Below are positions 3,864 through 53,161 of a stretch of DNA of 64,000 nt, piece after piece. Position 1 is the stretch's first letter. Every line of letters begins with the position of its first letter. The DNA is from Latrodectus hesperus (lineage: Eukaryota > Arthropoda > Arachnida > Araneae > Theridiidae). Position numbers and translations under genes: made by a program. The stretch is taken from the NCBI GenBank assembly GCA_037975125.1, contig JAJQOW010000187.1, positions 62,001-126,000 on the forward strand. The letters run 5' to 3'. A model generated the notes under the pieces. The model ran no database searches and was not told the DNA's origin. It saw only the letters and a list, made by a program, of their open reading frames with translations.

Positions 3864-4303
3864 ATCTACAACAGCCTTCTCCAGCCTTGGAGTACCATAC
3901 TGTTAAAAGGCTTATTAAGTCAAATATAGCCTCCTATCGTAGAAATATTTACAAGATGTGCATAAAGGAGAAAGCATGGGCTTCCTTACTAACAAAGCCT
4001 TTTCCGTGTAACCTCCACAGAGCTGTGGGAGTGGCAAATTTTCGCCTTAAAAACTGGGCATGATTATCTGCAAAAACACCTTCACCGTTTGGGTTTGAGG
4101 GACTCTCCAATCTGCCCTTTTTGCGGACTAGAGGATATGACTGGTGACCACCTTTTCACTTGCCCTGGACTTTCGGACGTCGCAGATAGAAATTCTGCGG
4201 AAGATGACTTTTCATTCACCTCAAGATTGTATTGGGCTGCCCGACAGAGACTGATGGTTGAAAAACCAAGGTTGGGCGTAGGATAAAAAAAAAAAAAAAA
4301 AAA
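3864..4303 (+). mobile_element. 5'-truncated LINE insertion (RNase H-type LINE 3' end)
   Basis: This 440 bp segment is absent from element B at the same place and is flanked by a 12 bp target duplication, ATGTATAATCCT, at 3852-3863 and 4304-4315. It ends in a run of about 19 A. This is the classical structure of a 5'-truncated retroposition by target-primed reverse transcription. The encoded protein end is described separately. Confidence 0.92.
4005..4286 (+). pseudogene. C-terminal end of a LINE ORF2 (post-RNase H zinc-binding tail)
   Basis: The frame reads CPFCG....MTGDHLFTCPGL, a C-x2-C-x7-H-x4-C zinc-binding arrangement found at the C terminus of LINE polyproteins of the R1/I type. An upstream piece in another frame (about 4009-4052) continues the same protein, so one frameshift near 4052 breaks it. 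Open part 4089-4286. The reverse transcriptase and RNase H proper are missing because the insertion is 5'-truncated. Confidence 0.7.
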
Positions 4304-5383: not shown

Positions 5384-5527
5384 GAAAATACAGAGGTTAA
5401 AGTCATTTTTGATAGTTGACATTATTTTGTATGTTGTTTTTCTTATTGTAATTTATAACATAAAACGATTAAACTTAAAGCCCAGATATAGGTCGAAATT
5501 ATTCAAAACACCACTTGTTATCCAAGA
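5384..5527 (+). other. Putative internal exon of element A
   Basis: A TTTTACAG acceptor precedes 5384, and AGGTAAAG gives a possible donor near 5527. The enclosing frame (5370-5597) is preserved in element B (47374-47622) with only a couple of residue changes. It encodes a hydrophobic stretch rich in I, V and L followed by a basic segment (about LNLKPRYRSKLFKTP). No family is recognised. Conservation between the copies may simply reflect recent common origin. Confidence 0.3.
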
Positions 5528-6212
5528 GGTAAAGTTTTGTGATATCCATCTTGAGAATAATTTAATTATTTTATTAGAGAGAAAGAATATAATTTAAGTT
5601 TAATCTTATTTATCAGCTAAGCATTTAATATTTTAAAATTAATATATCATTCATTAACATGTTGGATGTGTTTACAACTGTTCTACATGATGGATCAGCT
5701 GTTTACGGATTGCAAATGATTATGAAATCAAAACTTAGGAAAAGAAAATAATATTGCCCAATTACATAAATGAAATAGTTAGGTCTTCTTTATTTATATG
5801 TTTTATCCTTTTTCTGGCTTCTTGCAAAACTTAAATTTGTTATAGAAATTTTTTTAACAATAACATTTGGTATAAATATATTATACTGGAAAGTGACCTT
5901 TAATAGGTATTTTATGGTTATATGTAGTCTCGATCAATGACCACATCTAACCATAAATACAAATTTTTCCTTAATATTTTTCAATATCATTGGTAATTAC
6001 AAGCCAGATAATTTATTTCCTTGTGTTACAATTTTTTTAATTATTTGTATTAACAAATAATTAAATAATATAATTCTTGCAAATAATTATAATTGTAAAT
6101 AATATTAACAAATAATTTAATTTTAATACAATTAAATGTAGTTAATATAAGATTTGCAAAGAATTGTAATTATAAATACTATTAGAAAGTAAATAAAGGT
6201 AATATTTTTTCG

Positions 6213-6330
6213 TCAGGCAGTACTTGGTTGATGACCTTCTTCTGGTTTTGGATTATTGTAGAGTGTACAACGTCATGGACCTGGTCTAGCACTGCTGGCC
6301 TTTGGGGGCATGCAGCAACAACAACAATAT
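6213..6330. repeat. SINE-like segment shared by both element copies
   Basis: A relatively GC-rich stretch beginning GTCAGGCAGTACTTGG and ending in GGGGGCATGCAGCAACAACAACA interrupts AT-rich DNA. The same block is in element B at about 48170-48320. The compositional break and short CAA-repeat tail suggest an old SINE inserted before the copies diverged. No clear tRNA A and B boxes were found. Confidence 0.4.
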
Positions 6331-7786
6331 TTTTTAAGTAAAGTAACAAATTGCTTATATTTATTATTGATGGCTATTTTGCTAATATTTCATTTTATAC
6401 ATTAGCTTTGAAGATTGTGTTTCTAACATCTCCCCACTCCAATGTAAAGTGTACCTATTTAAACTATAGTCCAGAATCAATAACTTATTTTCTAATAATA
6501 TTGGATTAAATATAAATTTAATACAAAGTTATGAAAAACATTTTTACTTCTAAATAATTTATGATTATGATAATTACTTGTGATGTAAATTTACTGGGCA
6601 ACAACTAGAATGCATGTATTCAAAATCTGTAAATCTTTTGCATTAATTGATGTAATTTTTTTCATTAATCTGTAATCACAGGTATATAAAAAATAAATTC
6701 CATGTTAATAAGATTTTGCATAGAATATTGCATAAATAATTCGAAATTGTCAATATGTTTTAAAATGCATCAATATTTATTTTAATTACTATGATTTTAT
6801 AAACTTTACTTATCTGTAATTGTAGTTGTGTGTAAAAAATAATTTGGTAATCATTGATGAATATTTTATTAACCATTTTTTATTAGTTCAAAATGATTTT
6901 TTAAAAGCATGAAATACAGAATGTATGTTGTTATAAATTAATTACATTCTATTATTATAACCTTGAAAATGTAAAATTCTGTTGAAAACATTACATTGAA
7001 TTTTTGAAGTCAGATGTTTAGAATTTCTATTAAGTCATTCAACTGAAATTGTTTTCATTCAACCCAATTATTTGTCTCTATTTTTAATCAAAGAATTGTT
7101 AGAATTGATGAATGTTGATTTTTTGTTACTTAGTGTTATTTATTATAATGTGTATGTATATATATAATATATATATTGAAATATCAATATGAATATAAAC
7201 TAAAACTAAACTTTGGCACGACAGTCCAGCAGGCACAGTGGGCCAAGGCCTACTGTGCCTGTTTTCCTGACCAAGAGCCCCTGGGCTGCGAAGCACATGT
7301 CCCGATTTGGTGCTCAGCATAACGCAGTGTTTAGTTCCCAAGCATGCTCATTGTGGACATAATGTGACAAATAACCATTCCCCCTTTTTTAAAGAGATAA
7401 AACTGTAATTAAGTAAAAGATTCCATCATAAAATAATTGTATTAATAATCTTTTCTTTATGAGTTATTAATTCTGAATGAAAATTGACACTATTATAGGC
7501 ATTCACAACCTATTCAAGTGCTTTGCTTGTTTTGCTTTGTAAATTTAATTGTAAAATATTGTAAGTTTAAAAATAGTGTGTTGGATTCTCCTTATTCAAA
7601 TAATTAATACTGTGAAATAATACCTAAATATGTGAAAATAAGTGTTATGCATGAAGATTTTCCTAATTTATATAAACAGCTCAATTTTTTCTTTTTTTTA
7701 CCTGGGCTGTTATTAACATCCTGCTGTTTTTATTTTTGTAATTAAATTGAATCAGTTTAACAATTCTGTTTTTTTTTTATTTTCAG

Positions 7787-7889
7787 AGTATTACAACAAA
7801 GTGAAAATCTTCCCAAAAGGAGAAATTTGTTCCAGAGTACTAATTCGGAAGGTGGACCACAAAAATAAAAGAAAAAACTTGTAAATTAA
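7787..7889 (+). other. Putative terminal exon of element A
   Basis: A long pyrimidine tract with TTTTCAG precedes 7787, and stop codons followed by AATAAA-like sequences close the segment. The same acceptor exists in element B at 48890, but the downstream sequences of the two copies differ, and copy A lacks the DUF4806-like exons seen there. The short frame shows an NSEGGP-like stretch that aligns loosely with the end of copy B's last exon. Confidence 0.3.
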
Positions 7890-8659
7890 AAATGTTTAAA
7901 ATTATTTTCAAATGTAAATAAAAATAGAAACTTTTTTATTTTCATTATTATCATAAATAAAAAATGTTAATTCCATTAATATTCAGACATTTCACTTATG
8001 TATGGCTTTTGTTGTGTTAATTTTTATAAGTAATAAAAAATCTTAATCTGTATCCTTTTGTATCCTTTTTCTCAACATCTTGTTGCATGGAGACATTTCA
8101 CTTATTTATGGCTTTGCTTTCTTAATTTTTATAAGCAATAAAAAGTGTTAATCTTTATACTTTTTATTATTTTTCTCAACATTTTGTTGCAGGGAGTTAA
8201 TTGATTTGGAAAATAATTCTATAAAATTGTCATAAAACTGGAATTCTTTTATACATTCAAGTTCAGTTATAGCAATAAATTGACACTTGCTTACACAAGA
8301 ATTTTTTTTAAATTTATAAATAATGAAATTCTGTAATAACAAAATATTTTAAAAACAAAATAAAGGTTACTTAAATAAAATTTAGATTATTAAAATAAAA
8401 CTATAAAATTGAGATAGCATTGTCAAAAAAATAATTTAAAATATGAGTTAGTAATTCATATTTATTAAATCTTTATATAATTAAGAACTAAAAATGCACT
8501 TAATCATATTTGACAATATTACATGGATAACAATTGTCTTTTAGAAACACAAAAATATATTCACTATTAATTTGATGGATTTCCAATACTTTTATATTAA
8601 CTTTAACAATATATACAATATTAATATAAAAATGAATTCAATATTTATAGAAATAACCA

Positions 8660-8949
8660 TAACCAGCCCTTCGTCGGTGAAAGCGGCTATCGTCGGCCAA
8701 ACGGCAAAGGGCCGATGGATAACCGTATATGGGCAGGTACTGGCAATTACATGGGCCACATGCGGCCAATATGGCATTGATGGCCACCCGGCGTTGGGCC
8801 AACAGCGGACCGTACTGTCGGCCCAGCAGCAATGACGACGACCACTTTATTGACGGAGCCGACGAGGCCAAATAGCGGCGGGCCGCTGCTGGCCAAGGCG
8901 GCTAACAGCAGCGGCCCGATGGATGCCCGGCATCTTTGTGTTTGCTGGG
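8660..8949. repeat. Right GGCC-rich subterminal arm of element A
   Basis: About eleven GGCC motifs sit in 290 bp, ending in the inverted CCCAGC terminus. The nearly identical arm of element B is at 52260-52550. Beyond the outer 15-24 bp the left and right arms are similar in style rather than exact inverted copies. Confidence 0.75.
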
Positions 8950-38530: not shown

Positions 38531-38672
38531 AAACTTCTGAGGAAGCAGAAGTATTTCCTAACCTTCCTCGGCACTGCCAAATCTGCAGCGTTCGAGGAAG
38601 CATCGCTGGCGTTATTTGCATCAACTCATGGGTACACACATATAGGAAAGACACAAAAAGTAAGCAATAATA

Positions 38673-38678
38673 TTTATT
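38673..38678 (-). terminator. Poly(A) signal AATAAA for the leftward gene
   Basis: AATAAA on the minus strand about 195 bases after the stop codon at 38874, within a TTTAATAAATATT context that also occurs at the end of the rightward unit (44452-44466). Confidence 0.6.
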
Positions 38679-38785
38679 AAATAGTAAAAGTATACATATA
38701 TAAAATTTTTTTACATATTTACACAAACACATTAAAGTCCTAGTCCCGCGTTGGAACATTGCATCCTGTCCGCAAAGCAAAGCAG

Positions 38786-38869
38786 CTGAAAAAGAAAACA
38801 TATCATTCGTATCAAAAGATTCCAAGTTAGATGGTTGCAAAGAATCTTAGAAGGACTGAGCATACTCAC
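38786..38869 (-). other. Predicted 84 nt intron downstream of the leftward gene's stop codon
   Basis: The minus strand reads exon G, then GTGAGTATG as donor at 38869, and TTTTCTTTTTCAG as acceptor ending at 38786. Both match the consensus closely. The TAG stop lies 5 bases before the donor, so the intron would be in the 3' untranslated region unless the stop is read through. Confidence 0.5.
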
Positions 38870-38873
38870 CAAT

Positions 38874-39299
38874 CTACCAAGTTGAGACAGACTTCATCTT
38901 GGCCTCAATACTTTGAAGCTCTCTCTCCAATTCCTCCTTACGCTGCTTGAGAAGACTCTCTCTTTCGTCTGTCCACCAACTCCTTAGCAGTTTAACTTTC
39001 TCCATAGCGCACGCCACCCGGTTTCTGTGCGGCACAAACTTCACGTCGTGATACCCGCACGATCCATCTTCTTCGCCTCCGTACATTTGGCGGAGCTTTT
39101 CTATCCTAGGGCATCCAAACTGTTCTATGTTAACAGCAGGAATTCGGAGATTCATCAAGAAAAACTTTTCATGGATGCCGCCCTTGTATCCCACGACATT
39201 TCTTTGCTCCGTTTTCACAGATTCGTATAACCGCATCACTTGAAAGTTCAACTCTTTTTGCGGAAGGGCCCTCTCACCAGTCCTGGGATACAGCGGCAA
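38874..39299 (-). CDS. Unrecognised protein with C-terminal coiled coil (leftward gene, downstream frame)
   Basis: 141 codons with no upstream ATG; the frame opens at a TTG, so it probably continues the frame at 39474-39274, displaced by a frameshift or an unseen splice. The sequence is well mixed (KGGIHEKFFLMNLRIPAVN, CPRIEKLRQMYGGEEDGSCG), unlike random AT-rich frames. The last 40 residues (ERESLLKQRKEELERELQS) form a clear charged coiled coil. No known family. The gene sits about 330 bp behind a TATATAAG promoter and ends before a poly(A) signal. Function unknown. Confidence 0.55.
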   Translation of the reverse strand: MPLYPRTGERALPQKELNFQVMRLYESVKTEQRNVVGYKGGIHEKFFLMNLRIPAVNIEQFGCPRIEKLRQMYGGEEDGSCGYHDVKFVPHRNRVACAMEKVKLLRSWWTDERESLLKQRKEELERELQSIEAKMKSVSTW

Positions 39300-39474
39300 T
39301 CATGCAGGTTTGTCGGCAGTAATTGATGCTTCTCTCCTCATCTCCCGTTGGTCGCCTGATTACTTCTCCCAAGTCTATCGTGAGGAATCCAACCCATGGA
39401 CCGGCAGCATATGCCATCTCTCTGGGAAAAAAATTCCATTCAGATCGAAACCTTGGAAATTGATAATCATGCAT
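39274..39474 (-). CDS. Unrecognised protein, upstream frame of the leftward gene
   Basis: The first in-frame ATG is at 39474 (MHDYQFPRFRSEWNF); the frame is open 20 codons further upstream without an ATG. It reads FFPREMAYAAGPWVGFLTI and EERSINYCRQTC before a stop at 39274, overlapping the 141-codon frame by 26 bases. The shared promoter and overlap suggest one original gene broken by a single shift near 39290, or a programmed frameshift. About 130 bases of 5' leader separate it from the predicted start site at 39601. Confidence 0.5.
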   Translation of the reverse strand: MHDYQFPRFRSEWNFFPREMAYAAGPWVGFLTIDLGEVIRRPTGDEERSINYCRQTCMIAAVSQDW

Positions 39475-39600
39475 ACCCGATCCATGGCTGAGTTTGGACT
39501 TGGATGGAATGAAGACTGGACTTGGAAGAATCAAAGATTTGCAGAGGGAAGAGCAGCAGGAGCAACAGGCAGGAAGACTGGAGGAACTATCGTGAATGTC

Positions 39601-39628
39601 TGAAGCGGTCTGGCGAGCAGCTTATATA
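39601..39628 (-). promoter_or_regulatory. Core promoter of the leftward gene
   Basis: The minus strand has TATATAAG at 39628-39621, and CTTCAGAC with the A at 39601, 27 bases downstream: textbook spacing for a TATA box and an arthropod initiator. The rightward gene uses the same TATATAAG plus TTCAGAC pair. Confidence 0.6.
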
Positions 39629-40080
39629 CCCCGCTGGAACCAGGAAGTAATCGCCCATTCAGACAAGACGTTTCATCACCGCGATAACGCGAGAAACGAC
39701 GCAATACCTTTATCACTTCCTCATTCCTCTGTTCACGTGATTCGTCTGATGCTTCGAACCATCCTTGGATACTTTCAAGGACGCAAATGAAAGACTTCAT
39801 GGTTGCCTTACCAAACATGATGACTTGTGTCGTTACATGTAAGGAACACACATTCTACTCTTCCAACGATACTGCTGCTGCACACTATTGCAAGCTGTAA
39901 CTTGAATGAAACTTGAACATCCTGAATGAACTATGAAAATTTTCAATCTTTGGCTGTTCATTTGCCTGGGAAGCAGGACCAGAAAGTCTCCATGATGACC
40001 TCGTGCGCCGTTGTTGGCTGTGGTGGATGGAGAATGTCCTTCCTATAGACGCGGAAGCTTTCCGAAGTTTCTATGAGGAG

Positions 40081-40227
40081 TATATATGAAACTCTCCATC
40101 AATCAGATGAGCCTTGTTCCCACTGGAGGAAGGAAGCAGCCTGAAGAGCTCCTGACTTGGCCGTTCCAATACAAACCTACCAGGACCCAAGTCATGAAGA
40201 ATTGTCTCCTTGTTTCTTCATCAATGT
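40081..40227 (+). promoter_or_regulatory. Promoter and 5' exon cassette 1 with strong splice donor
   Basis: TATATATG at 40081 is followed by ATCAGATGAGCC, an initiator-like site that includes an ATG at 40107. A 38-codon frame (starting MSLVPTGGRKQPEE) runs into the donor GTAAGTATAG at 40226. A diverged second cassette is at 40945-41101. Transcription would point towards the rightward genes; an acceptor could not be picked with confidence. Confidence 0.4.
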
Positions 40228-40540
40228 AAGTATAGACCGATTGACTGCTAGACATGGCCCGTATTCTCATAGTAACCAGTTTGACGTAAGATTCATTGAT
40301 GCACGACTCACACTCAGTTGTGCACTCGTAACTCGGAAGAATGCTCCTGACGAACGCACTTGGAATGACACCGGTCCATAGCGACATTCGGGTCTAACGC
40401 CAGGTGCAAGTAGGCTAAGGAAGCATCGAATCCCATCACCGGGTGGCCGAGGACGAGGTCTATTAACTGGTCTCTATAGAATGAAATGGGCAAGTCTTTA
40501 GTTTGATCGGTCTCTTCGATAACCAAGTATGGATGTTGCT
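40226..40540. repeat. Direct repeat R1 of three
   Basis: About 300 bp, repeated at 41100-41405 (R2) and 41458-41765 (R3). Shared strings include AACCAGTTTGACGTAAGATT, GACATTCGGGTC and GGGTGGCCGAGGACGAGGTC. A 108 bp core has no indels among the three copies. The minus strand carries a frame conserved in all three (see 41497-41748). Confidence 0.88.
40314..40526 (-). CDS. Small repeated protein, copy R1
   Basis: The minus frame contains PISFYRDQLIDLVLGHPV, then GFDASLAYLHLALDPNVA and RCHSKC. The matching frames in R2 and R3 keep this core with conservative changes and no shift. This copy opens at a TTG rather than an ATG. No family recognised. Conservation in frame suggests it is or was a gene, but the repeats are short. 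Confidence 0.35.
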   Translation of the reverse strand: MVIEETDQTKDLPISFYRDQLIDLVLGHPVMGFDASLAYLHLALDPNVAMDRCHSKCVRQEHSSELRVHN

Positions 40541-40703
40541 GTGGAGACTAGCGTCAACCTGCCAAACACTTCCATTTGAAGCTTGCCATTCCACTAGGAG
40601 CCTGCCAATGAGTTCCAGATGTATTCCAAGGATGGTCGTTCTAGCCTCATTGCCGTTCATGGGACATGGAAGATGCTCAACTTGAAGCTAGGATGATCCT
40701 GGC

Positions 40704-40795
40704 GATGTAGCAAGGAGATATCCCTGAGATGTAGCGAGAAGATATCCCTGAGATATAGCTAAGAGATATCGCTGATATGTAGCAAGAAGATCCTC
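40704..40795. repeat. 24 bp tandem repeat, nearly four units
   Basis: Units start at 40704, 40728, 40752 and 40776, each resembling GATGTAGC.A.GAGATATC followed by CCTGA, with a few substitutions. It lies in the spacer between R1 and the TA microsatellite. Confidence 0.85.
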
Positions 40796-40845
40796 TCTGG
40801 TCAACCAAGCAGCCAAGCCTCGACTGAAGAAGACAACTGACACGT

Positions 40846-40848
<3 letters not shown>

Positions 40849-40907
<59 letters not shown>
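40849..40907. repeat. TA microsatellite inside the GC-rich block
   Basis: About 29 TA units, immediately left of the second promoter/5' exon cassette. Confidence 0.95.
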
Positions 40908-40908
<1 letters not shown>

Positions 40909-40944
40909 CATGTTTGGTTGTCTCAACCACCTGGATACTACATA

Positions 40945-41101
40945 AGCTTCAGCTCGAGTCTTTGTCACTCAGATGAGCCTTGTTCCTGATGAAGGAAGGA
41001 AGCAGCTTTCTGAAGAGTTCCAGTCTTTGCCGTTCCAAAATCCAAAAAGTCATGCACTTTTTCTTCCTTGTTCCTTCTAAGCAACACATCCAGTACTTGG
41101 T
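40945..41101 (+). promoter_or_regulatory. 5' exon cassette 2 with strong splice donor
   Basis: ACTCAGATGAGCCTTGTTCC at 40970 matches cassette 1. The ATG opens a 35-codon frame (starting MSLVPDEGRKQLSEE) similar to that of cassette 1 over its first 20 residues, and the segment ends in GTAAGTATAG at 41100. The preservation of both peptide start and donor is notable, although the downstream exon is unknown. Confidence 0.4.
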
Positions 41102-41307
41102 AAGTATAGACTGATAGACATGCCCCGTGTTCTCAGAGTAACCAGTTTGACGTAAGATTCATTCTTTGCACGTCTCGCAGACATTCGTGCAACTCGTAAC
41201 TCGGGAGAATGCTCCTGACGAACGCACCTGGAATGACACCGGTCCATAGCGACATTCGGGTCGAACACCAGGTGCAAGTAGGTTAAGGAAATATCGGATC
41301 CCAGCAC
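41077..41307 (-). CDS. Small repeated protein, copy R2 (partial)
   Basis: The frame continues PISFYRDQLVDLVLGHPV, then GSDISLTYLHLVFDPNVA and RCHSRCVRQEHSPELRV. It opens upstream of 41307 in the same frame to a stop near 41367 without an ATG, so this copy looks like a relic or needs splicing. Same unknown family as R1 and R3. Confidence 0.3.
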   Translation of the reverse strand: MLGSDISLTYLHLVFDPNVAMDRCHSRCVRQEHSPELRVARMSARRAKNESYVKLVTLRTRGMSISLYLPSTGCVA

Positions 41308-41405
41308 TGGGTGGCCGAGGACGAGGTCTACTAACTGGTCTCTATAGAACGAAATGGGGTTTTCTTTTTTGTCTATTCACTGACCAAGTATGGATGTTGA
41401 TGTAA
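41100..41405. repeat. Direct repeat R2 of three
   Basis: Most similar to R1, both over the conserved core and in the preceding 5' exon cassette, so R1 and R2 are probably a later duplication of a unit of about 870 bp. Confidence 0.88.
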
Positions 41406-41457
41406 AGATAGAAATCTTGGAACAAGTGCATGTCAAGAGTTATTCAGCTCGTGGATG

Positions 41458-41765
41458 GTATAGACTGATTGACTGCTAGACACGCTCCCGTGTTTCTCAG
41501 AGTAACCAGTTTGACGTAAGATTCATTATTGTTCGACTCGCAGACAGTCGAACACTCGTAACTCGGAAGAACACTCCTGACAAACGCATCCAGACATGGC
41601 ACCGGTAGATAGAGACATTCGGGTCAAGCGCCGGGAGCAACTTGGCTATGGAGTTGTCGGATCCCTGCACTGGGTGGCCGAGGACGAGGTCAACTAACTG
41701 GTCTCTATAGAACGAAATGGGAGTAGTCTTGTGTCTAATCAGTCTCATTACTGACCAAACATGGG
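41458..41765. repeat. Direct repeat R3 of three
   Basis: The most diverged copy. It has lost the GTAAGTATAG donor (GGTATAGACTG instead) but retains the 108 bp core without indels. Confidence 0.85.
41497..41748 (-). CDS. Small repeated protein, copy R3
   Basis: 83 codons from a true ATG at 41748. It begins MRLIRHKTTPISFYRDQLV, with the shared core DLVLGHPV, GSDNSIAKLLPALDPNV and YRCH. It is the only one of the three with an ATG start and a complete frame. No family recognised, no signal peptide, mixed composition. Either a real small gene or the best preserved relic. Confidence 0.38.
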   Translation of the reverse strand: MRLIRHKTTPISFYRDQLVDLVLGHPVQGSDNSIAKLLPALDPNVSIYRCHVWMRLSGVFFRVTSVRLSASRTIMNLTSNWLL

Positions 41766-42160
41766 TGTCAAAGCCAGAGATTTTGGAAAAAGGGCATCAC
41801 CTCAATGATGGACAGTACTACCATCAAGAATCCAAGCTTGAAAGCTCGTAACGTTCCTGCTGACATCAATATTCCAAGATTCCAAGCTTGCAAGCCGTGC
41901 TCAATGCCAGTAGAGATGGAAACCTTCACCACTCTTGTCTGCCTTCGTTGGTCTCAATCCAAAAGTTTAAGGACAATGATGGTAGGCGAAATGTTTGGAT
42001 GGCACGTGTCCAGACACTCTGCAACGTGACCCACTTGGAACGGTTTCAAATGGTATTTTCCTCACCACGCCACCAAATTCCTTAACTTTTAAGGGCATAA
42101 AGAGGGTTCTGAAGGCTGATCCAACGTTGGTAAATGGCGAGATTCCAGATTGCTGCTGAG

Positions 42161-42196
42161 TATATAAGGAGGCTCGATTCAGACGGAAAGCATTCA
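42161..42196 (+). promoter_or_regulatory. Core promoter of the rightward gene
   Basis: TATATAAGG at 42161-42169 is followed by ATTCAGACGG at 42177 and CATTCAGACTG at 42191; the second gives about 35 bases from the TATA box to the A, the first about 20. The TTCAGAC motif matches the leftward promoter. The coding region starts about 65 bases later. Confidence 0.6.
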
Positions 42197-42258
42197 GACT
42201 GAGGACTGCCTTACTACCAGTCATCTCTCTCTCCTTCCTGTATCCTTTCCTTGCAGGC

Positions 42259-42777
42259 ATGGCCAACGATCCCAGACTTGCTGATGATTACCGACGCCAC
42301 CAAAAGTTGTCATCCCGTCCTTCCAATGCCAGTATTTATGAACGAGATGCCCAGTCGTCAAACCATCGACCAGTAATGAAGAGATCCGGCTATGGAGAAG
42401 CTGTTTCTTCACAGCATAGTCCCACCAGCCGTCCAATTCCAAAACACTCTAAGCGACCTGCCGCAGATGTAATGAAGAGATCCGGAAGCAGACCTGAAGC
42501 AGAACAAGAGCCTCCTCGTTGTCCCACTTTGTCAGATGAATTCAAACGACCTACCTGCCGAGACGATCCATCGGTATCCAAAAAGTCTTGCCGACAAGCA
42601 GATTCCCACCGTCTATCCTCTCGTCCGGCTACATTCAAATCGAGCCGACCAAGTGAAGAGTCCAAATCTCACAGCAAACAACGGAAGCGTCCTGCCGAGC
42701 CTTCTTCCAGTCCTTCTCCTGCAGTCAAAGAATCCAAATCTCACAGCAGCCATCAGAAACGTCCAGCCGAGCAGTAG
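42259..42777 (+). CDS. Basic, serine-rich protein with KRPA repeats (rightward gene, part 1)
   Basis: 172 residues from ATG 42259 (MANDPRLADDYRRHQ). Strongly basic and disordered, rich in S, R, P and K. VMKRSG occurs twice, and KRPAE/KRPAD-type motifs recur at least four times (SKRPAADVMKRSG, KRPAEPSSSPSPAV, KRPAEQ). The style is that of a nuclear nucleic-acid-binding or regulatory tail. It ends at TAG 42775, yet the same frame stays open for 63 more codons (42778-42969), so the stop may be a mutated sense codon. Directly behind a good TATA promoter. Family unknown. Confidence 0.55.
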   Translation: MANDPRLADDYRRHQKLSSRPSNASIYERDAQSSNHRPVMKRSGYGEAVSSQHSPTSRPIPKHSKRPAADVMKRSGSRPEAEQEPPRCPTLSDEFKRPTCRDDPSVSKKSCRQADSHRLSSRPATFKSSRPSEESKSHSKQRKRPAEPSSSPSPAVKESKSHSSHQKRPAEQ

Positions 42778-42931
42778 ATGCCGTACAGTCCAGATGCTTC
42801 CTCCAGCACCGGTATTGACATTTTCCCAACTCTCGCAGACAAACTGCCGTCCAGACTGGATCCTAAAGTCCCCTCAACGACATCCACCATCCTAAGCTTC
42901 ATCGTATTCCTGAGAGGACTCAGGATTTCAC

Positions 42932-43855
42932 ATGCTGCCGCCAGATGTTTGGACGGCAAACATTCATAGACTGTTTGCCGAAAGTCAAAAGTGCAACTCG
43001 ATAGAGTACGGAAGATTGGACTGGGCAAGAGCCGAACATCGACTAGACAAAACACCGACATCGGTAGGCCGGCAGAATGAGGACGTGCGCCTTGGATTCC
43101 GGTGGGAAAACATCTTCCTGGTCAAAATGTTCTTTACATTTGGACAGAGAACACCGGATCCAGGAACCGTCCACGTTATTCAAACATCGGCTGCTCCAAT
43201 CCTCTATTACGAATACAATCCTAGCAACAAGTTCAGTAACACCAACAGTCCAAAGAAAAGCCGCTACAGAACCTCTGCTTCGGCATCCTTCGTGGCCACA
43301 TCGAAAGGCTTTTCTTCGTACGACCAGTTCTTGTACGACCGTTATGTATTGCAGCACTTTTCCAACTACAGAGTAAGACCAGACACGACGTATGTCATTC
43401 TAACATGTCAGAAAAGCCTTTTTCAACTAGATGTCGTCCATGAAACTACTGCTGATGACTTGGAGAAAAGAGGGATTTACCACTTTGCCTCACCGACAGC
43501 AGACCGAGTACTCCGGCCCAACGCTAGCATGGGGTACTTGGACAGACCGCCGGCGACACCATTGTGGAGTCCTTCTCCTCCAGCACCTGAAACATCAGAC
43601 ATTACATTCAACCATAACAATAGTCAGATCCTTGAAGTTCCTCCTCAACCAAGCGAGGCAGAGAGGAACCTCATCGAAGAAATGTTTCAAGACATTCAAC
43701 CTTCACCCATTTCCCCAGAGATCCCTGCAGAAATACCATCTCAAGAAACTACCCAACTGATGCTCGTATCGACAGGAGACCAGTTGACTTGGATTGTCCA
43801 ACCGCCACTGCAGCAGCAGCAATCACCACCACCACAACTCACTACTACTACTTAG
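42932..43855 (+). CDS. Unrecognised 307-residue protein, proline/glutamine-rich C terminus (rightward gene, part 2)
   Basis: ATG 42932. The first 170 residues have a folded-protein look: FRWENIFLVKMFFTFGQRT, HVIQTSAAPILYYEYNP, TTYVILTCQKSLFQLDVV. The last 130 residues are P, S, T and Q-rich with an acidic patch (AERNLIEEMFQDIQPSP) and end in glutamine and threonine runs, typical of activation or linker regions. TAG at 43853 ends it, but the same frame continues to 44404 with one more TAG. Frame 1 of part 1 overlaps its start (42932-42969), so a frameshift or splice may connect the parts. I cannot assign a family. Confidence 0.55.
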   Translation: MLPPDVWTANIHRLFAESQKCNSIEYGRLDWARAEHRLDKTPTSVGRQNEDVRLGFRWENIFLVKMFFTFGQRTPDPGTVHVIQTSAAPILYYEYNPSNKFSNTNSPKKSRYRTSASASFVATSKGFSSYDQFLYDRYVLQHFSNYRVRPDTTYVILTCQKSLFQLDVVHETTADDLEKRGIYHFASPTADRVLRPNASMGYLDRPPATPLWSPSPPAPETSDITFNHNNSQILEVPPQPSEAERNLIEEMFQDIQPSPISPEIPAEIPSQETTQLMLVSTGDQLTWIVQPPLQQQQSPPPQLTTTT

Positions 43856-44404
43856 GATGCCTCGGTCAACACAACAGAGGAATGGTCTTGTTCCAGCTGC
43901 GTGGCAAGGAAAACATCAGGATTGGGCATTGCCAGAAAACGCATTGAATTGTGCTGCAGTCCAGAAGCTCCAAAGAAAAGGCGGCGGATTGAACAACCAC
44001 TGGATCTTTCTTGTGGCGACTAGACAGGAGAGATTCCCGAATCACATTCAAGGCCTAACCTTCCACCGGCACCATCGAGACACATACGAGACGATGGACT
44101 CTTCAAACCACAAGATTCTGATGACGAGGAGGACGACGAGTCGCATGAAGAGGACGACGATTCGCATGAAGAGGACGACGAGTCGCATGAAGAGGACGAC
44201 GAGTCGCATGAAGAGGACGACGAGTCACACGAGGAGGACGAGTTGCCACAAGAAGAACAATTGTCACCACCAGAGTCGGACATGAACTTTTTAAATAATA
44301 TGCCTATGCCGGACTTGTCAGATTTTTTAAACGAAGACGAGGAAGCGGTATCATTCATACCCCAGCCGGACGACAGTGACCGGTTTTGGGAGGAATTTAT
44401 GTAA
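43856..44404 (+). pseudogene. Continuation frame: basic NLS-like run, PLDLS motif, acidic repeat tail
   Basis: In frame with the preceding 307 codons across TAG 43853 and containing a second TAG at 44021. Before that stop it has a cysteine-containing segment (WSCSSC ... LCC) and PKKRRRIEQPLDLSCGD, a basic nuclear-localisation-like run followed by PLDLS, which matches the known PxDLS motif that recruits the CtBP corepressor. After the stop come about five acidic DDESHEE heptapeptides and an acidic/aromatic end (PDLSDFLNEDEE, DRFWEEFM), like an activation domain. TAA at 44402-44404. Reads as the C-terminal part of a transcription regulator that has lost continuity, or is expressed by readthrough or splicing. 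Confidence 0.5.
44119..44243 (+). repeat. 21 bp tandem repeat encoding acidic heptapeptides
   Basis: About five to six units of GACGACGAGTCGCATGAAGA-like sequence encode DDESHEE. The unit length of 21 keeps the frame. The repeat is nearly perfect, so it has expanded recently or been kept homogeneous. Confidence 0.9.
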
Positions 44405-44455
44405 AAAAAATCATCACATGTATTATAATGTATGTATATATTTCCTAATTAATTT

Positions 44456-44461
44456 AATAAA
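44456..44461 (+). terminator. Poly(A) signal AATAAA of the rightward gene
   Basis: 52 bases after the TAA at 44404. Its context, TTTAATAAATATT, mirrors the one at the leftward gene's end. Confidence 0.65.
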
Positions 44462-44525
44462 TATTTATTTAACTTTACACATTTGTGTCATTCATGTATT
44501 TCCATACCATACACTACACCAAAAT

Positions 44526-44588
44526 GGGCCCTCAGCAACAATCTCATGTTCTCCATCATAGAGAGCATGAGATTGTTGCTGAGGGCCC
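44526..44588. repeat. Palindrome P1: 23 bp perfect arms, 17 nt loop
   Basis: GGGCCCTCAGCAACAATCTC at the start of the left arm (44526-44548) returns inverted at 44566-44588. Flanking CCAAAA and TTTTTTGG add a few more pairs. Confidence 0.95.
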
Positions 44589-44615
44589 TTTTTTGGCACT
44601 TTGATGACCAATCTT

Positions 44616-44714
44616 GGATGCTCTCAAGCTCAGATCTTTTCCACAGAGGAGACCAAGTTCCTCGTAGAGGAACTTGGTCTCCTCTGTGGAAAAGATCTAA
44701 GCTTGAGAGCATCC
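44616..44714. repeat. Palindrome P2: 48 bp arms, 3 nt loop, one mismatch
   Basis: Left arm 44616-44663, loop GTA, right arm 44667-44714. The only difference is C against T near the outer third (AAGCTCAGATC versus AAGCTTAGATC). It is the longest inverted repeat in the GC-rich block and would extrude a long hairpin. Confidence 0.97.
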
Positions 44715-44819
44715 ATTTTTTTTGTGTGTTCCATTCACCAATCTTGGTGAGTCCTGCAGTGACAAGACTTGGTATGATTCCATCGAAACGTCATGTGAAC
44801 AGTGTCCAACAATGGATTC

Positions 44820-45126
44820 CAACGTTGCCATCATTGGACATTACTAGCACCACATTAATCTTGGTAAGTTATTCAACTAAAGTCTCATTCCTTCCAGGTA
44901 GCACTTGCCATTCTTGGACGTTGCTAGCATCACACACATCTGCTAGCAACGTCCAAGAATGGCAAGTTTTTCTTGTGAAAACTCTGACCTTCCAAGCTGT
45001 ATGTCCAGACAGCACTTGCCATCATTGGACATTGCTAGCATCACACCAATCTTGAAAAGATATCCAACTAAAGTATCATTACTTCCAATAGGAACGTCCA
45101 GAGAGCACTTGCCATCATTGGACATT
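44820..45126. repeat. Imperfect tandem repeats of a TTGCCATCATTGGACATT unit
   Basis: Copies of the string TTGCCAT(C/T)(A/C)TTGGAC(A/G)TT(A/G)CTAGCA(T/C)CACA start near 44824, 44905, 45018 and 45109, about 80-110 bp apart, with CCAACTAAAGT-type strings between them. The last copy is split by element B; its right part resumes at 52551 (TACTAGCATCACACC). Confidence 0.8.
44903..44967. repeat. Palindrome P3: 27 bp perfect arms, 11 nt loop
   Basis: Left arm 44903-44929 contains one tandem unit (ACTTGCCATTCTTGG...GCTAGCA), and 44941-44967 is its exact reverse complement. The right arm is thus an inverted copy of a local repeat unit. Confidence 0.95.
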
Positions 45127-45259
45127 ACCCAGCAAACACAAACTGCCGGCAAAAATCCGGGCCGCTGCTGGCCAAGCCGGTTTTCTGTTGGCCACGGCCA
45201 GCCGCTCATGGTTGTTTGATGGCCCAGCTCCGGCCATTACGGCCACGGATGAGTGCTGG

Positions 45260-45296
45260 CCAAAATGAACCGGGCCGGTGGCCCGGTTCATTTTGG
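45260..45296. repeat. Palindrome in the left arm of element B: 17 bp arms, 3 nt loop
   Basis: CCAAAATGAACCGGGCC, GGT, GGCCCGGTTCATTTTGG. Element A has CCGGTGCTGGATGATAAGTA at this point instead, so the right arm is a secondary inverted copy of the left. Confidence 0.95.
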
Positions 45297-45534
45297 TAGT
45301 GGGCCAACAGATTTTGGCCATTGTTGGCCCTGAAGCTGTTGGCCAGCAAAATTAAGACAATTAGTTGTAGCGCTATTTTTTATTTTATCGGCAAAGACTA
45401 TTTTTTTCCAAATAACTATTTTTTTGTGATGTTAATTAATTTTCATTTAACTTCTTACTTTTTAAACTCTTTAAAAACAACTTTTCAGAAAGAAATCTAA
45501 TTTTCACATTTATTGTGTATTCCGCGTGACAGTA

Positions 45535-45630
45535 TGACGTCAGATACTGCGAAATGCTTGAGTCTGCGTCAGCCATTAATGTGAAATGGTGGAGTGTTGT
45601 GTCTGTGAGCTAAGAGAAATATAAGGTAAG
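45535..45630 (+). promoter_or_regulatory. Element B promoter-proximal TGACGTCA and first splice donor
   Basis: TGACGTCA at 45535-45542 and donor AGGTAAGTAAG with GT at 45626, the counterparts of 3058 and 3156 in element A. Confidence 0.5.
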
Positions 45631-47384
45631 TAAGCATTTATTATTGTTGTTTTTATCAGGATAGAATTGTTATGAATGAGATGCAAGAATAATATATTTG
45701 TTTTATGTTGAAATATTATTTAATTACTTGTTAAGAAAATTTCATAAGCTGTTGATAACGTGACAACAAAAGAAAAACATTGGAAAATGTTTGTCATTGT
45801 ATGTTTTAAAATAATTTCATTACCGTGTGAGGAATAGAAAAATATATCATGCACAAAAGCATTTTTTCATTCCATATATTAGTTATATTTAATCAATTAG
45901 TATAATAAATTTTTCAATGCTCAATTTTTTGAATCGAATTCGATTGCTACAAAGTTTAAACGTATTTATTACATTTTTTGTTTTTTAGGAAGCAAGTTTA
46001 TGGAGTCTAAAAATATTCTATTTGAAAGCGCTTAGATGTTTACTTTCAATAAATTAATATATGATATTGTAGCATTTCTGATCAAAAAATTATGTGCGAA
46101 TTCCATATAAACTTTAATTATTTTATTTTTAAAAGGCTTTCTTATTTACTATTATTTTTAAGTCAATTTTTACTGACCGAAATATTTTGTCTTATAAGGA
46201 TTCGTGGTTTTAAATTTTGTATACTCCTCAAAGATCTGTTTTAAGGAATGAAAAATTGTACAATGCATAATATTACAAAATATTTTATTGCATATATTAC
46301 CTGGTTTTTATGTATAATCCTGTCAACCATTAAAATCATTGTGGATTTCTTAGCGAAATATTATTGCATCTAAAACTCGAAAAATTGTATAAACTTGAAA
46401 ATAGTAAATTTTAAAATTTCTATAGGAATCTGACAGATTAATTGCCACAAATTAATAAAAAAACATCTAGAATTATGTGGTTGGAAAATTAATATTAACA
46501 CGTATGAAAAATGTTCATATGGAACAACTTTTATTATATAAATTAGTTGTGTAGCATGTTAACTATTTCCATGTAAAGAATGCTGTCAGATGTAACAGCT
46601 TAGTAGTTACTCTTGTGTTTACATTATTATATTTAAACCATATTTTATGTTTTTATTTATGATGGAAAAATTGAAGTATGAATTAACAGTAATTTCAATT
46701 TGTTTTAATGAAAATATAAGTTAACTAGAATATTTGTTCCTTTATATTTTGGAGAAAGTGATTAACATTTCAAGCATTTGATGATACTTTTGACATTTTG
46801 ATCTCTTGATTCTTTTGTAGGAATGTAAATGGTTTTACTGTTATAGTAAATAGTCGACCGGATAATGGGTAAATGATATATCTAATCTTATATATATACA
46901 CACATAAACATACAATTAAAACATAATTTTTTTCCCTTTACCGATTTACAAAGTCTGATTATGATAATATTGTCCTATATATAATATTGTCAGATTGAAT
47001 TATTTTTATTTACTTTTGATTTTTCTCTTCAAGGAATTGAAGTTAAATAAAGAACTTAAACATAATTTTAAACAGTAAATTAGTAAGGTATACAAGTAAA
47101 ATGAGTATGATATGAGAAATAGTTAAAAAAAAAGTTTATTATTTTTGATTTCATAAATACCTCTAATTTTAAAATTCATTGTACAATTTCTAAATAATAA
47201 CAAATAATTAAAATATTGCATTAGTAAACTCCATGTTTATTTTATTTTATCGTTTTAATATAGTAAGCATAATTAGGTTAATCCTCCTAACATTTACATA
47301 TATATATATATATAATTTCTAAATTTATTAACTGTTTTTAATTTCTCGATATCTCTTTTGTTGTGAGTTTTATTTGTGTATTTT

Positions 47385-47530
47385 ACAGAAAATACAGAGG
47401 TTAAAGTCATTTTTGATAGTTGACATCATTTTGTATGTTGTTTTTCTTATTGTAATTTATAACATAAAACGATTAAACTTAAAGCCCAGATATAGGTCGA
47501 AATTATTCAAAACACCACTTGTTATCAAAG
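47385..47530 (+). other. Putative internal exon of element B
   Basis: Counterpart of 5384-5527, with the same TTTTACAG acceptor and AGGTAAAG donor and a hydrophobic-then-basic peptide. No known family. Confidence 0.3.
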
Positions 47531-48164
47531 AGGTAAAGTTTTGTGATATCCATCTTGAGAATAATTTAATCATTTTATTAGAGAAAGAATATAATTTAAG
47601 TTTAATCTTATTTATCAGTTAAGCATTTAATATTTTAAAATTAATATATCATTCATTAACATGTTGGATGTGTTTTACAACTGTTCTACATGATGGACCA
47701 GCTACATGAATTGCAAATGATTATGAGATCAAAACTTAGAAAAGAAAATAGTATTGCCCAATTACATAAAGGAAATAGTTAGGTCTTCTTTATTTATATG
47801 TTTTATCCTTTTTCTGGCTGCTTGCAAAACTTTAATTTGTTATAGAAATTTTTTTATCAATAACATTCGGTATAAATATATTATACTGGAAAGTGACCTT
47901 TAATAGGTATTTTATGGTTATATGTAGTCTCGATCAATGACCACATCTAACCATAAATACAAATAATTTTTCCTTAATATTTTTCAATATCATTGGTAAT
48001 TACAAGCCAGATAATTTATTTCTTTGTGTTACAATTTTTTTAATTATTTGTATTAACAAATAATTGTAAATAATATAATTCTTGCAAAAAATTATAATGG
48101 TAAATAATATTAACAAATAATTGTAATTATAAATACTATTAGCTAGTAAATATAGGTAATATTT

Positions 48165-48320
48165 TTTTGTCAGGCAGTACTTGGTTGACGACCCTCTTCT
48201 GGTTTTGGATTTTAGTTTGACGACCCTCTTCTGGTTTTGGATTATTGTAGAGTGTACAATGTCATGGACCTGGTCTAGCGCTGCTGGCCTTTGGGGGCAT
48301 GCAACAACAACAACAATATT
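48165..48320. repeat. SINE-like segment in element B with 32 bp internal duplication
   Basis: Counterpart of 6213-6330. The string TTGACGACCCTCTTCTGG occurs twice, 32 bp apart, in this copy only. It ends in GGGGGCATGCAACAACAACA. Confidence 0.45.
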
Positions 48321-48982
48321 TTTAAAGTAAAGTAACAAATTATTGCTTATATTTATTATTGATGGCTATTTTGCTAATATTTCATGTTAATAAGATTTCC
48401 ATGTTAATAAGATTTTGCATAGAATATTGCATAAATAATTCAAAATTATATTTATGTTTTAAAATTCATCAATATTAATTTTAATTACTATGATTTTATA
48501 AACTTTACTTATCTGTAATTGTAGTTGTGTCATAAAAGATTGTATTAGTAATTTTTTTTATGAGTTATTAATTCTGAATGAAAATTTACATTATTATAGG
48601 CATTCACAACCTATTCAAGTGCTTGGCTTGTTTTGCTTTGACTGTAAATTTAATTGTAAAATATTGTAAGTTTAAAAATAGTTGTGTTGGATTCTCCTTA
48701 TTCAAATAATTAATACTGAGAAATAATACCTAAATACTAGAAAATAAGTGTTATGCATGAAGTTTCTCCAAATTTATGTAAACAGCTCAATTTTTTTGTT
48801 TTTTACCTGGGCTGTTATTATTATCCTGCTGTTTCTATTTTTGTAATTAAATTGAATGAGTTTAATAATTCTGTTTGTTTTTATTTTCAGACAATTACAA
48901 ATTTTTTTGAAATAGTTAAATTATTATCACTATCTTCAATCAAACTTTTTTCGTATGATGATGTTATGAAATGATAATGTTA

Positions 48983-49106
<124 letters not shown>

Positions 49107-49112
49107 TTCTAG

Positions 49113-49303
49113 CAATGTTGAAATCTTTGTACGGTGTAATCTTGGAGCTGAAGAAAGATGTTCATAAGAATACTATGCTTTTGCAGTACCTACTTCCGAG
49201 CACAACTATCGTGGAAGAGGGGAATGTATTGTCTATTTGTAGTTTTGATGAATTGAAAGTTATGGAAGAAAGGCTCTAAGGCATTGAAGAATTTAGTAAA
49301 ATG
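49113..49303 (+). pseudogene. DUF4806-like exon of element B
   Basis: The exon lies between CCTTCTAG and ATGGTAAAA. It encodes [27 protein letters not shown], a loop, then FDELKVMEERL, a TAA stop at 49277-49279 and GIEEFSKMV. The pattern of a helix with L-x2-I-x3-V, a central loop and an E-L-x2-(L/M)-E-x2-L helix is that of DUF4806, a domain common in arthropod proteins linked to transposons. The TAA inside it suggests the copy is dead. The middle of the domain (usually with GG) was not found. Match by eye only. Confidence 0.45.
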
Positions 49304-51261
49304 GTAAAAATATTAGTTTAAAAAAGCTTGTTTTTTGTGTGTATAATATATGTATGTACATAATATTTTAATAGGTTATTATCAAAGAGATTACTTGGGT
49401 AATTCTAAGAAAATTAATAAATAATTAAAATATTTGAATTTACAATTTAATATTATTAAAAATTAAAATTAATCCCTGACTCAAAATTATTTGAAGCATT
49501 TATCATGCGTATATAAATGCAATTTATCATCTTAGAAAAACATTTTAAATTGTATGTCAGTAAACATTATTAATAAATTTAACTTAGAAAAATGAAAAAA
49601 ATATTTTATCACATAGTGCAATAAATGAGTATTACTTTAGATAAGAATTAACAATTTGCTATGTTTTAAGGTATACTGTAATTTATAAATGTGCATTGAA
49701 GCCAAAAATATTTTCAACTCAAATTTATATTTTAAATTAAATAATTTGTGTACTTAAATGTATCTATTTAAATTTTCCAAATACTTAATCAATTAAAATA
49801 ATTAAATTTAGTAGCTAAAAACGAAATATTTTGGTGGTTAAACTTATACCTATTTAAATGTGAATACTATCCATAGATTTTCTGATGTTTCTGTTTTTGT
49901 AAGGGATTATAAATGTCATTGATTTAAAAAAGAATAAAATATTTTTCTTTAGGTTAAAGTCTTGCAACTTTATTTGGCAATTTTATTGCAATATTCTCTT
50001 TGATTTATTTTAACTGGTTGATCGATTGTCACTTTTTGGTATATTTTGCATGCAAGGGCTAATATCTACAGTAAAAATTGTGTACTCCATCACTAATTTC
50101 ACAATTAAGATGAGAATCAAACCCCTTACTGTTGAATTGATGACTGTGTTACTTTAACTATTGCAATGATTGGCTTGTGTGTTGGTTGTAAATTAAAATA
50201 TAAATGTTTTTTAAATGGGAAAATATTTTTTCTAGGTTATTCTTCGAAAGTATGGCACTTTGAAATAATCATTTACTTGGTTTTTTAAGTATACTTTCCT
50301 ACTAAAAATTTAGCAAAGAATCGAAAATTTCTTATAGAAACATTATTAACTAAAAAAACAAATAAAAATAACTAGTGAAAAAAATAATCTGGTGAGCAAT
50401 AAATTTGTAAAAGATGACAAATTACATGCATTTATATATAATATACACAAATAAATATAATACATTTTTTATTTCAATTTTTTAATAAAAACGAACTGTA
50501 ACACTTCGATGACTTCATTATGAGCTTATTGCAGTAAGAACTGGAAATTCATTTTCTGACGTTGTGTTTTAATATGCAAAAACTAGAAATGTTATCTTTT
50601 TTCTTCTGATTTATGAGTTTTCTATAAAGAGGTAATTTATTATATTTTATTTTTCTTAAAATACTTTACTTTGTTAAAAGTTAAGACCTTTTTAATATCA
50701 AAAATTCACTTGTTTAAAACTATCTATATAGATTGACATTTTTCTTAGAATTCATAGTTCTTGTAAAACTAACAACAACTAGTCCGATATTCATAAATTT
50801 TTTGCTATTGGTAAACGAATTATTTATACAATACTGAGAGCCTAGACTTGTTATAATAGAAGAAAATAGTGCCAAAATATAAGCGAATAAGGAGGAGCTC
50901 AAATATTAAAATATTTCTTTCATTGTTAAGAGAAAATACAAAATTAATATTGATCACTGAAATTTAAAGTGAAAACTTATGCACCAATTCAATATAAAAG
51001 GATAACTTCCAGCATTTATTTAAACAAGAAATTCTTGATTTATTTCTTAGTGAAAAATTGTATTCTTAAAATTTTTATTAACATATATAAATATAAAGCA
51101 AACAGAAAAAAAGTAATTTACTACAAAAATTATCTTTCTTAAAGATTTCTCTTTTCTGTAATTATTTTTTTAAATAATTCTGAATTTATTTTATTACAGG
51201 TTACAAAAAGTAATCTGAATTGATGTTACCTGTATTAATTTAATTTGATTTTTATTTTCAG

Positions 51262-51380
51262 TAAGTGTTCGACAGCAAAGAGAATATTCTAGCATTTCGC
51301 AACACAAAATAGAAGAGTATGTAAGAAATTGGCTTCGAAATGCTCCAGATCGGGAAGGAACAAAAGAAGAAAACTTTTAA
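51262..51380 (+). other. Terminal exon of element B, DUF4806-type end
   Basis: The acceptor TTTATTTTCAG is followed by a frame reading SVRQQREYSSISQHK, IEEYVRNWLRNAPDREG, TKEENF and TAA at 51378-51380. A WL-x2-A-x-R ending is typical of DUF4806 proteins. AAATAAATAATG-type poly(A) signals follow within 30 bases. Confidence 0.5.
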
Positions 51381-52259
51381 ATTAAAAATACTGTAAATAA
51401 ATAATGTGAATGGATTTTTGATTGTAAATAAAAAAAATTTTATACAGGATCTGTCTCGTTCTGAGCCATCATTAATAAAAATATCATTGATATAATATAA
51501 ATTATCTAATATAAAAAGTTGTTTATGTGTGTTTAGTTAAATGTGTTGCATGCTTTACAAAAATACAATAAAACAAATATCATAAAATAATTAACTTAGA
51601 ATTTTATGTATATGTTCATCCGCTGAATTTAACAACAGAACTGAAAATTTAACAACAGAACTGTTAACAATGAAGTGAAAATTTCTCAAAGATATATTAA
51701 AATGTTTATTGAATAAAAATAAATAATTACTGCTAATTCAAAAGTAATCTTAACAAATTGGTAAAACATGATTATAATCAACATATAAATGAATTCTATT
51801 AGAAAAAATATTTTAGAAAAGAATCAAATCTAATATAAATATTTATTTATACAAAAATAAACTAATATTTACTAGCTCATTACAGTAAAAGCTGGAAATT
51901 CGAATTTTTGAAATTGTTTTAATTTATATATAATTATTTCTTAAGAAATAAAAACATATTTAATGTTATACTATTAATATATATGTATTTAAATTAATTT
52001 TAACAAAAATAAACTGTAATATTCATAAGCTCATTATAATAAAAGTTGAAAATTAAAATTTTTGAAGTTGTTTTAATTTATATACAATTATTTCTTAAGA
52101 AATAATATGGGAAGAGAGCGGCATCTCTAAATAACCAAAGCAGATTCAATTTAATGCATTTCCAATATATTTCAATAGTAACTTTACAATATATAAATTC
52201 TTAGCAATTAAAAAATGGGTAAATATTTCATTTTAATCTGTAGAAATAAAATCAAAGTT

Positions 52260-52550
52260 ATAATTGGCTCCACGTCGGTTAATGCGGCCATTGCCGGCCA
52301 AACTGCAAAGGCCCGACGGATAACCGTATAGGGGCATGTGCTGGCAATTATACGGATCACACACGGCCAATACGGCATTGCTGGCCACCCAGCGTTGGGC
52401 CAACAGCGGACCGTACTGCCGGCCCAGCAGCAATGACGACGACCACTTTATTGACGGAGCCGACGAGGCCAAATAGCGGCGGGCCGCTGCTGGCCAAGAC
52501 GGCTGACAGCAGCGGCCCGATAGATGCCCGGCATCTTTGTGTTTGCTGGG
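52260..52550. repeat. Right GGCC-rich subterminal arm of element B
   Basis: Nearly identical to 8660-8949 of element A, ending in the inverted CCCAGC terminus. Confidence 0.8.
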
Positions 52551-52740
52551 TACTAGCATCACACCAGCCATCCTTGGAACCTAACTCAACTGAATCCAAC
52601 TTTGGAATCTTCAACCTTCCAATCTTGGTCAAATGGAATCTTCAGCTTTCCAACCTTGGTCAATCCAGCTTCATCGGCTACACCAACCATGGTCAAAGCA
52701 CAAATTATCCAGCAAACAACCTTGGTAACGGTTGAACCGC
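52551..52740. other. Continuation of the GC-richer block with CCAANCTTGG repeats
   Basis: This non-coding stretch repeats the 10 bp quasi-palindrome CCAATCTTGG or close variants at 52619, 52650, 52683 and 52717. The same motif is at 44608 and 44738 on the other side of element B. No supported frame. Confidence 0.55.
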
Positions 52741-53161
52741 GTAAGCTTATTCGTGAAAAAATTGAATGGGGTCCCGTGCTCATATATTTTTTTGACCGAC
52801 TGTACTTGTCTAAGTGACGATTTTGAGAGATTTTTTTTAATGGGGAAAATATTATTTTTTTTATCACGACTAGCTGCACTTTCAAGTCTATATCCTGATC
52901 TGGAGTTATGACAAAAATTATAATTCGCAAAATTAAGGTTTTTGAATTCCTTTAATTCAGTTTCTTGTAAAATTGTTTTTCGAGTTTTTTATTGTTCACG
53001 AAAATTATTTATTCCGTTATTTTATTTTGTAATGCCTTGCAGTTCCAGTGACAAATTAAGAAGTCTATAAGTTTATTAGTTGCCCTTATTAGAATAAATT
53101 AAGTTTCCTACATTATTTTGCTATTGAAATCAACTATGGTAATGTTTTTGATTTGACTTTG

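Follow-up and report, generated by a model that had tools for sequence, protein, structure and literature searches.

A multicopy GC-rich block of probable naldavirus origin in the genome of the spider Latrodectus hesperus

What is the compact block, richer in guanine and cytosine (GC) than its surroundings, that lies within a 64,000-bp stretch of the Latrodectus hesperus genome (C187:62001-126000 of the 1.64-Gb genome G000; hereafter the window), and where did it come from? A first-pass annotation made from the letters of the window had proposed an endogenised DNA-virus segment or a mobile element, possibly an accessory or regulatory part of something larger. In the analysis described here, the block is very probably derived from an endogenised large nuclear DNA virus of Naldaviricetes type, and a regulatory role for it is somewhat favoured; the best explanation is a degraded early-type regulatory region that became part of the germ-line genome and was copied many times over. 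Judged by the gene content read from sequence, the virus was probably closest to the order that contains nudiviruses and baculoviruses, the one with RNA-polymerase subunits. The direct observations are a multicopy family, a foreign base composition, copies linked to PIF-1, PIF-2, a family-B DNA polymerase and Evr1/Alr, and two stop codons private to the window copy among the copies compared.

Copies of the block and linked naldavirus core genes

The GC content of the block was 0.43-0.50 in 1-kb windows across 38.5-45.5 kb, compared with 0.20-0.43 in the rest of the window, which bears out the abrupt compositional change that had been claimed; the non-coding parts of the block measured 0.43-0.45. 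DNA of its main gene, open reading frame (ORF) A, gave at least 46 genome matches on 26 contigs at 83-100% identity, counting the window's own, and the left transcription unit gave 59, many of them partial. The same block therefore occurs elsewhere in the genome as a multicopy family, rather than as the single-copy host locus that the first-pass annotation had named as the contrary case.

Further, some copies were linked to naldavirus core genes. On contig C1019, a PIF match (PF05092; 2e-7, 30.6 bits, cut-off 25) was found at L022:1547-1921; a stretch of the block that takes in the main gene (81.6%) begins at L022:2513, 0.6 kb from PIF-1, while GC stays near 0.5. A genome-wide search for family-B polymerases produced 19 matches, which were host-like on C2, C4, C7, C13 and C847 and formed paired pieces at C11:79.077 Mb; a large polymerase frame on C4, considered as viral, was rejected as it matches DNA polymerase epsilon. 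The 9.9 kb around the C11 pair (L018; GC 0.35-0.50, mostly 0.41-0.50) carried, over cut-off, DNA_pol_B (PF00136, 7.2e-12), PIF2 (PF04631, 1.3e-11, C11:79080405) and Evr1_Alr (PF04777, 1.2e-7, L018:5941-6426), the last of which we take to be a sulfhydryl oxidase of the P33 type. The linked region was delimited as C11:79.073-79.128 Mb, in which at most 55 kb separates the core genes from block repeats and from RING-region and left-unit sequence. In detail, block repeats (87-90%) with helicase-like frames occupy 79.100-79.108 Mb, RING-region and left-unit sequence 79.1225-79.1265 Mb, and a left-unit copy (80%) lies at 79.127 Mb. The inner DNA of other copies contained a RING-finger gene (PF13639, 2.4e-10 and 1.8e-11) and a 345-codon frame without an assigned family. 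Multiplicity together with adjoining core genes supports the earlier proposal of a virus segment or mobile element, both halves of which may hold, given the terminal sequence, with TA after it, that recurs in many copies, and the linkage likewise favours its suggestion that the block belongs to something larger.

Several results weigh against a naldavirus origin or the regulatory role. In L018, LEF-4 (0.0071) and P47 (0.0057) both scored under cut-off, as did the best helicase-like frame on C11 (5.6e-5), and the matches inside C11:79.07-79.13 Mb did not include ORF A itself, the link there running through the repeats and the left unit. PIF2 and PIF were each found at only two places genome-wide, so that most block copies have no detectable core gene near them; the other inner pieces sampled, L009, L010 and L015-L017, contained none. 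The genome search for p74 (PF04583) returned no match, its control being likewise silent. For the block proteins, no reliable match came from Pfam and PHROGs scans or from PDB sequence searches, and neither the scans of viral contigs nor that of genome contigs yielded a relative. Finally, DNA binding is read from the palindromic sites described below, because no usable fold model of ORF A was obtained (predicted local distance difference test score, pLDDT, 36).

A further PIF2 match (C13:125047-125592, in a 346-codon open frame) and a further PIF-1 match (C672:21991-22368, in a 435-codon open frame) lie away from the examined block-copy contigs and may stem from a second naldavirus insertion. 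The long frames of L016 and L017 proved to be long interspersed nuclear elements (LINEs), and the sample taken from the cluster at C11:20.0-20.2 Mb contained no virus core gene. In L017 (C2000:12000-21900), two tandem LINE copies, each an uninterrupted 1227-codon frame, directly follow a RING-gene fragment, which may be a preferred target. L015 (C8:66700000-66709900) is a minisatellite of about 10 kb with 31-40 bp units and embedded block-repeat units; its three minus frames hold 24, 30 and 24 stops, versus 116-121 in the plus frames.

The ORF A-B-C frame and the CCA-N4-TGG sites

ORF A, ORF B and ORF C constitute one reading frame with two TAG codons between them. The 313 codons of ORF A exceeded the longest frame in all 300 Markov simulations, and a second frame of at least 205 codons arose in 1 of the 300; the non-random frames of the first-pass annotation thus hold for ORF A, while the shorter frames of the block are not set apart from chance by length. 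The sole database relative of ORF A was P0001 (E 4.5e-41), a 269-residue partial protein from a 1260-bp NCBI contig in a bin labelled Streptococcus pyogenes. That label is probably a binning error, and P0001 is probably arthropod or virus DNA carried into the metagenome sample. Their alignment (272 columns, 46.7% identity) runs across the first TAG to PLDLSC, with 66/89 identities in the core, 19/31 at the C-terminus, and 6/29, 8/15, 20/46 and 6/21 in the segments between. PLDLS, a CtBP-type PxDLS motif near the C-terminus, is present both in ORF B and in P0001. A viral fold search with ORF A returned nothing at E <=0.001.

The two stops were compared in seven copies out of the 45 other ORF A matches. 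None of the seven has the second stop, and six lack the first, the seventh showing a gap there; therefore, both stops are private to the window copy among those compared. Most probably, the gene has ceased to function in the window copy.

A spacing-specific palindrome was strongly enriched in the block. CCA-N4-TGG occurred 22 times in its 6773 bp, where 200 shuffles gave 1.7+-1.4 and never more than 7, and the remaining 57,227 bp of the window contain it 8 times. Set at any gap between 0 and 20 other than 4, the same half-sites occurred 1-6 times in the block. Among 832 combinations of half-site and gap, only A/T palindromes ranked higher, because of an (AT)n tract. After masking of repeat copies, 14 sites were left, versus 1-4 at other gaps of 0-12. 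All sites except one (21/22) lie outside open frames, and 39 of the 44 inner bases are A or T. Consistently, the gap-4 excess was seen in all seven other fetched copies (8-17 per 3.9 kb, compared with 0-4 at other gaps of 0-9). Taken from the site pattern, this excess suggests the signature of a dimeric DNA-binding protein.

The favoured mechanism joins these features. ORF A-B-C would once have encoded a single nuclear regulatory protein, in which PLDLS would bind a co-repressor and the acidic tail would activate. Around two divergent promoters, this protein or a partner would occupy the CCA-N4-TGG palindromes in dimeric form, and so may have set early transcription or replication; the hairpins downstream may have yielded small RNAs. 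What was a control region of the virus would now be decaying in the host genome.

Dispersal of the copies and competing explanations

Five pairs of block copies face outward at distances of 15-36 kb, one pair faces inward, and other copies are direct. Of the 13 distinct outer ends that were aligned, 11 have the terminal sequence, the exceptions being L004 and L022 (C1019), and TA follows it in 10 of the 11; empty sites were not seen. Both ends carried it in three of the four pairs tried (C8, C12 and C299), and for the fourth, on C948, the left stretch fetched (L029) failed to align where expected. Outer flanks differ among copies except those of L006 and L008, which are identical, so that these two are not independent. 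One flank, L028, resembled the right-unit promoter by eye. In L009, the C8 copy, a long inverted repeat with arms 95% identical has near its centre a mariner-like gene (DUF4817, 1.9e-7), the only one seen. Movement of the block copies as a TA-flanked element is plausible, and spread as a mobile element is a serious, if tentative, possibility.

The leading alternative, which is compatible with a virus origin, is that virus DNA became the cargo of a Tc1/mariner-like inverted-repeat element with outward copies, the terminal sequence and TA at each of its ends, moving as units whose copies are 15-36 kb apart, a fusion of virus and transposon such as Teratorn (see below). We give it a little less than an even chance. 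The outward pairs, the frequency of the terminal sequence and TA, the differing flanks and the inverted repeat of L009 with its central gene all speak for it. However, the terminal sequence does not border that gene, which could be an insertion of other origin, the centre of the C12 pair consists of AT-rich repeats, the terminal sequence is missing from C1019 and L004, and the left end on C948 is unaligned. The inward pair and several direct copies do not fit either, and segmental duplication with inversion could also make pairs, as L006 and L008 appear to be one such case. A further-reaching form, which we consider rather unlikely, is that an arthropod naldavirus lineage became transposon-like, its early regulatory region serving as giant TA-flanked inverted terminal repeats and its inner virus genes as cargo at dozens of sites, and that it had a new type of regulator acting via CCA-N4-TGG.

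A host multigene family, or a domesticated virus gene still used by the host, is very unlikely. The strong conservation of the core between the window copy and P0001 and the private nature of the two stops would agree with it, but the abrupt GC shift includes non-coding parts, copies are linked to virus core genes, and they are dispersed at 83-95% identity with inverted pairs, the window copy being broken. Least credible of all is an accessory region of a Polinton or adintovirus, as mobile behaviour and a short E1A-like motif would allow, for the linked core genes (PIF-1, PIF-2, Evr1/Alr and the polymerase) are unlike the hexon and integrase that adintoviruses carry according to PMC11071296. 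Hexon, chromodomain integrase and adinto-type PolB did not turn up in the frames scanned, with no family search aimed at them.

Architecture of the locus and comparison with known systems

The features of the locus are collected in Table 1. The two outward-facing units with promoter and poly(A) signals, the short intron signals, the direct repeats and the large palindromes (44521-44967) reported by the first-pass annotation were all found again, on both strands in the case of the units.

Table 1. Features of the block and of the element inserted in it (window positions).
Feature	Position	Strand	Remark
Block, left and main part	38540..45127	.	Probably virus-derived; GC shift, multicopy
Left transcription unit	38673..39628	-	TATA-like box, open frames, poly(A)-like signal
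Left-unit TATA-like box	39621-39628	-	Complement of TATATAAG
Left-unit initiator	39598	-	Complement of TTCAGAC
Left-unit open frames	39277-39621 and 38877-39299	-	
Left-unit splice-like sites	Donor 38869, acceptor 38785	-	Rough weight matrices
Left-unit poly(A)-like signal	38673	-	TTTATT
Tandem repeat units (three)	40099..41768	.	79-80% alike; two with GTAAGTAT donor-like site
Plus-strand splice-like sites	Donors 40226, 41100; acceptor 42257	+	Rough weight matrices
Right transcription unit	42161..44461	+	TATATAAG to AATAAA
Right-unit signals	TATATAAG 42161; TTCAGAC 42178, 42193; AATAAA 44456	+	
ORF 1	42259..42777	+	Basic, 172 amino acids; directly after strong acceptor-like site 42257
ORF A	42914..43852	+	313 codons; contains core 74% identical to P0001
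ORF B	43856..44020	+	ORF A's frame after TAG; basic cluster, ends PLDLSCGD
ORF C	44024..44401	+	Same frame after second TAG; acidic repeats, stops shortly 5' of AATAAA
Hairpins (three), long and near-perfect	44521-44593, 44615-44715, 44903-44967	.	Just 3' of right unit
CCA-N4-TGG sites of block (22)	39277..52692	.	First 39277, last 52683; inserted element left out of count
7.4-kb transposable element	45128..52550	.	CCCAGCAAACACA ends; inserted in block, not virus-derived
Displaced right end of block	52551..52802	.	Beyond 7.4-kb insert
Terminal sequence, then TA	52769-52802		Common to many copies; within displaced right end

The block had been taken to end at 45127, which is wrong, because a TA-flanked element follows there and the block resumes beyond it. 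TA is duplicated around this element (45126-45127 and 52551-52552), and its flanks, once joined, match three resident repeat units gap-free in alignment. In the genome copies L002, L005, L006, L008 and L022, window positions 45128 and 52551 are directly joined, that is, these copies have no insert; L004 and L007 also bridge the site, less exactly, via repeats, and the comparison did not cover L003. A second CCCAGCAAACACA-ended copy lies in the window at about 2654-8949; both copies are TA-flanked and 6.3-7.4 kb long, and neither contains a frame of more than 150 codons. Another such copy breaks up virus-derived sequence on C223 (L014:260-6052). At the left edge, the best GC change point was 38737, leaving that edge uncertain within about 200 bp, and no repeat copy of the left flank (37.4-38.7 kb) was found elsewhere in the window.

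For the left exon frame, no database relatives were found and the fold model was poor (pLDDT 49.7). Three copies of the left-unit gene are arrayed at 3.47-kb spacing at C11:20101093-20109158, with shorter pieces of both ends repeated nearby, which suggests that they are part of a multigene family. The tandem repeats were rejected as coding sequence, codon-position bias being absent, and family scans of ORF 1 gave no match. As RNA, the three hairpins had z-scores of -15.1, -17.6 and -11.8 in the order of Table 1, and their Rfam matches all fell below the gathering score; the third repeats the adjoining direct repeat in inverted orientation and includes a palindromic CCA-N4-TGG site.

Naldaviricetes, with the order Lefavirales, include nudivirus-, hytrosavirus-, filamentovirus- and baculovirus-like viruses, and leave endogenous remnants in arthropods. 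Similar to these, the insertion family has PIF-1, PIF-2, a family-B polymerase, Evr1/Alr, weak LEF-4 and P47 matches and a RING gene. In contrast, the ORF A family, the left-unit family and the CCA-N4-TGG sites have no counterpart among the described families of the libraries used, and the sequence is amplified here with inverted pairs and a common terminal sequence. The regulator-like ORF A/B also resembles adenovirus E1A in its short conserved islands and in a basic cluster beside the PxDLS motif; in E1A, according to PMC5930299, that motif is a CtBP-binding site embedded in a bipartite nuclear signal. Unlike in E1A, a large acidic frame (ORF C) follows. Neither ORF A, ORF B nor P0001 had an E1A match in Pfam, and the likeness between E1A and ORF B is one of analogy, not homology.

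Papillomavirus E2 sites are palindromes of dimer type with CC-N6-GG spacing, clustered near promoters. The palindromes of the block are likewise of dimer type, with equal CC-N6-GG spacing, and near promoters, while they differ in having A as the third base and mostly A/T inner bases. Teratorn, in which a herpesvirus and a piggyBac transposon are fused, is comparable as large virus DNA dispersed with defined ends, whereas the block copies end in TA rather than TTAA and have naldavirus-like genes. With Tc1/mariner-type elements, most of the block copies aligned share inverted terminal repeats and TA at the target.

Endogenous naldavirus DNA can serve as a record of the infections of a lineage, and hosts can domesticate it, as in the bracoviruses. 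In L. hesperus, what has been amplified is probably a virus control region; its terminal sequence is defined, and its spacing-specific palindrome names a candidate DNA-binding target. The block gives sequence handles on a regulator family missing from every library used, and may add another example of a large DNA virus that spreads in the fashion of a transposon.

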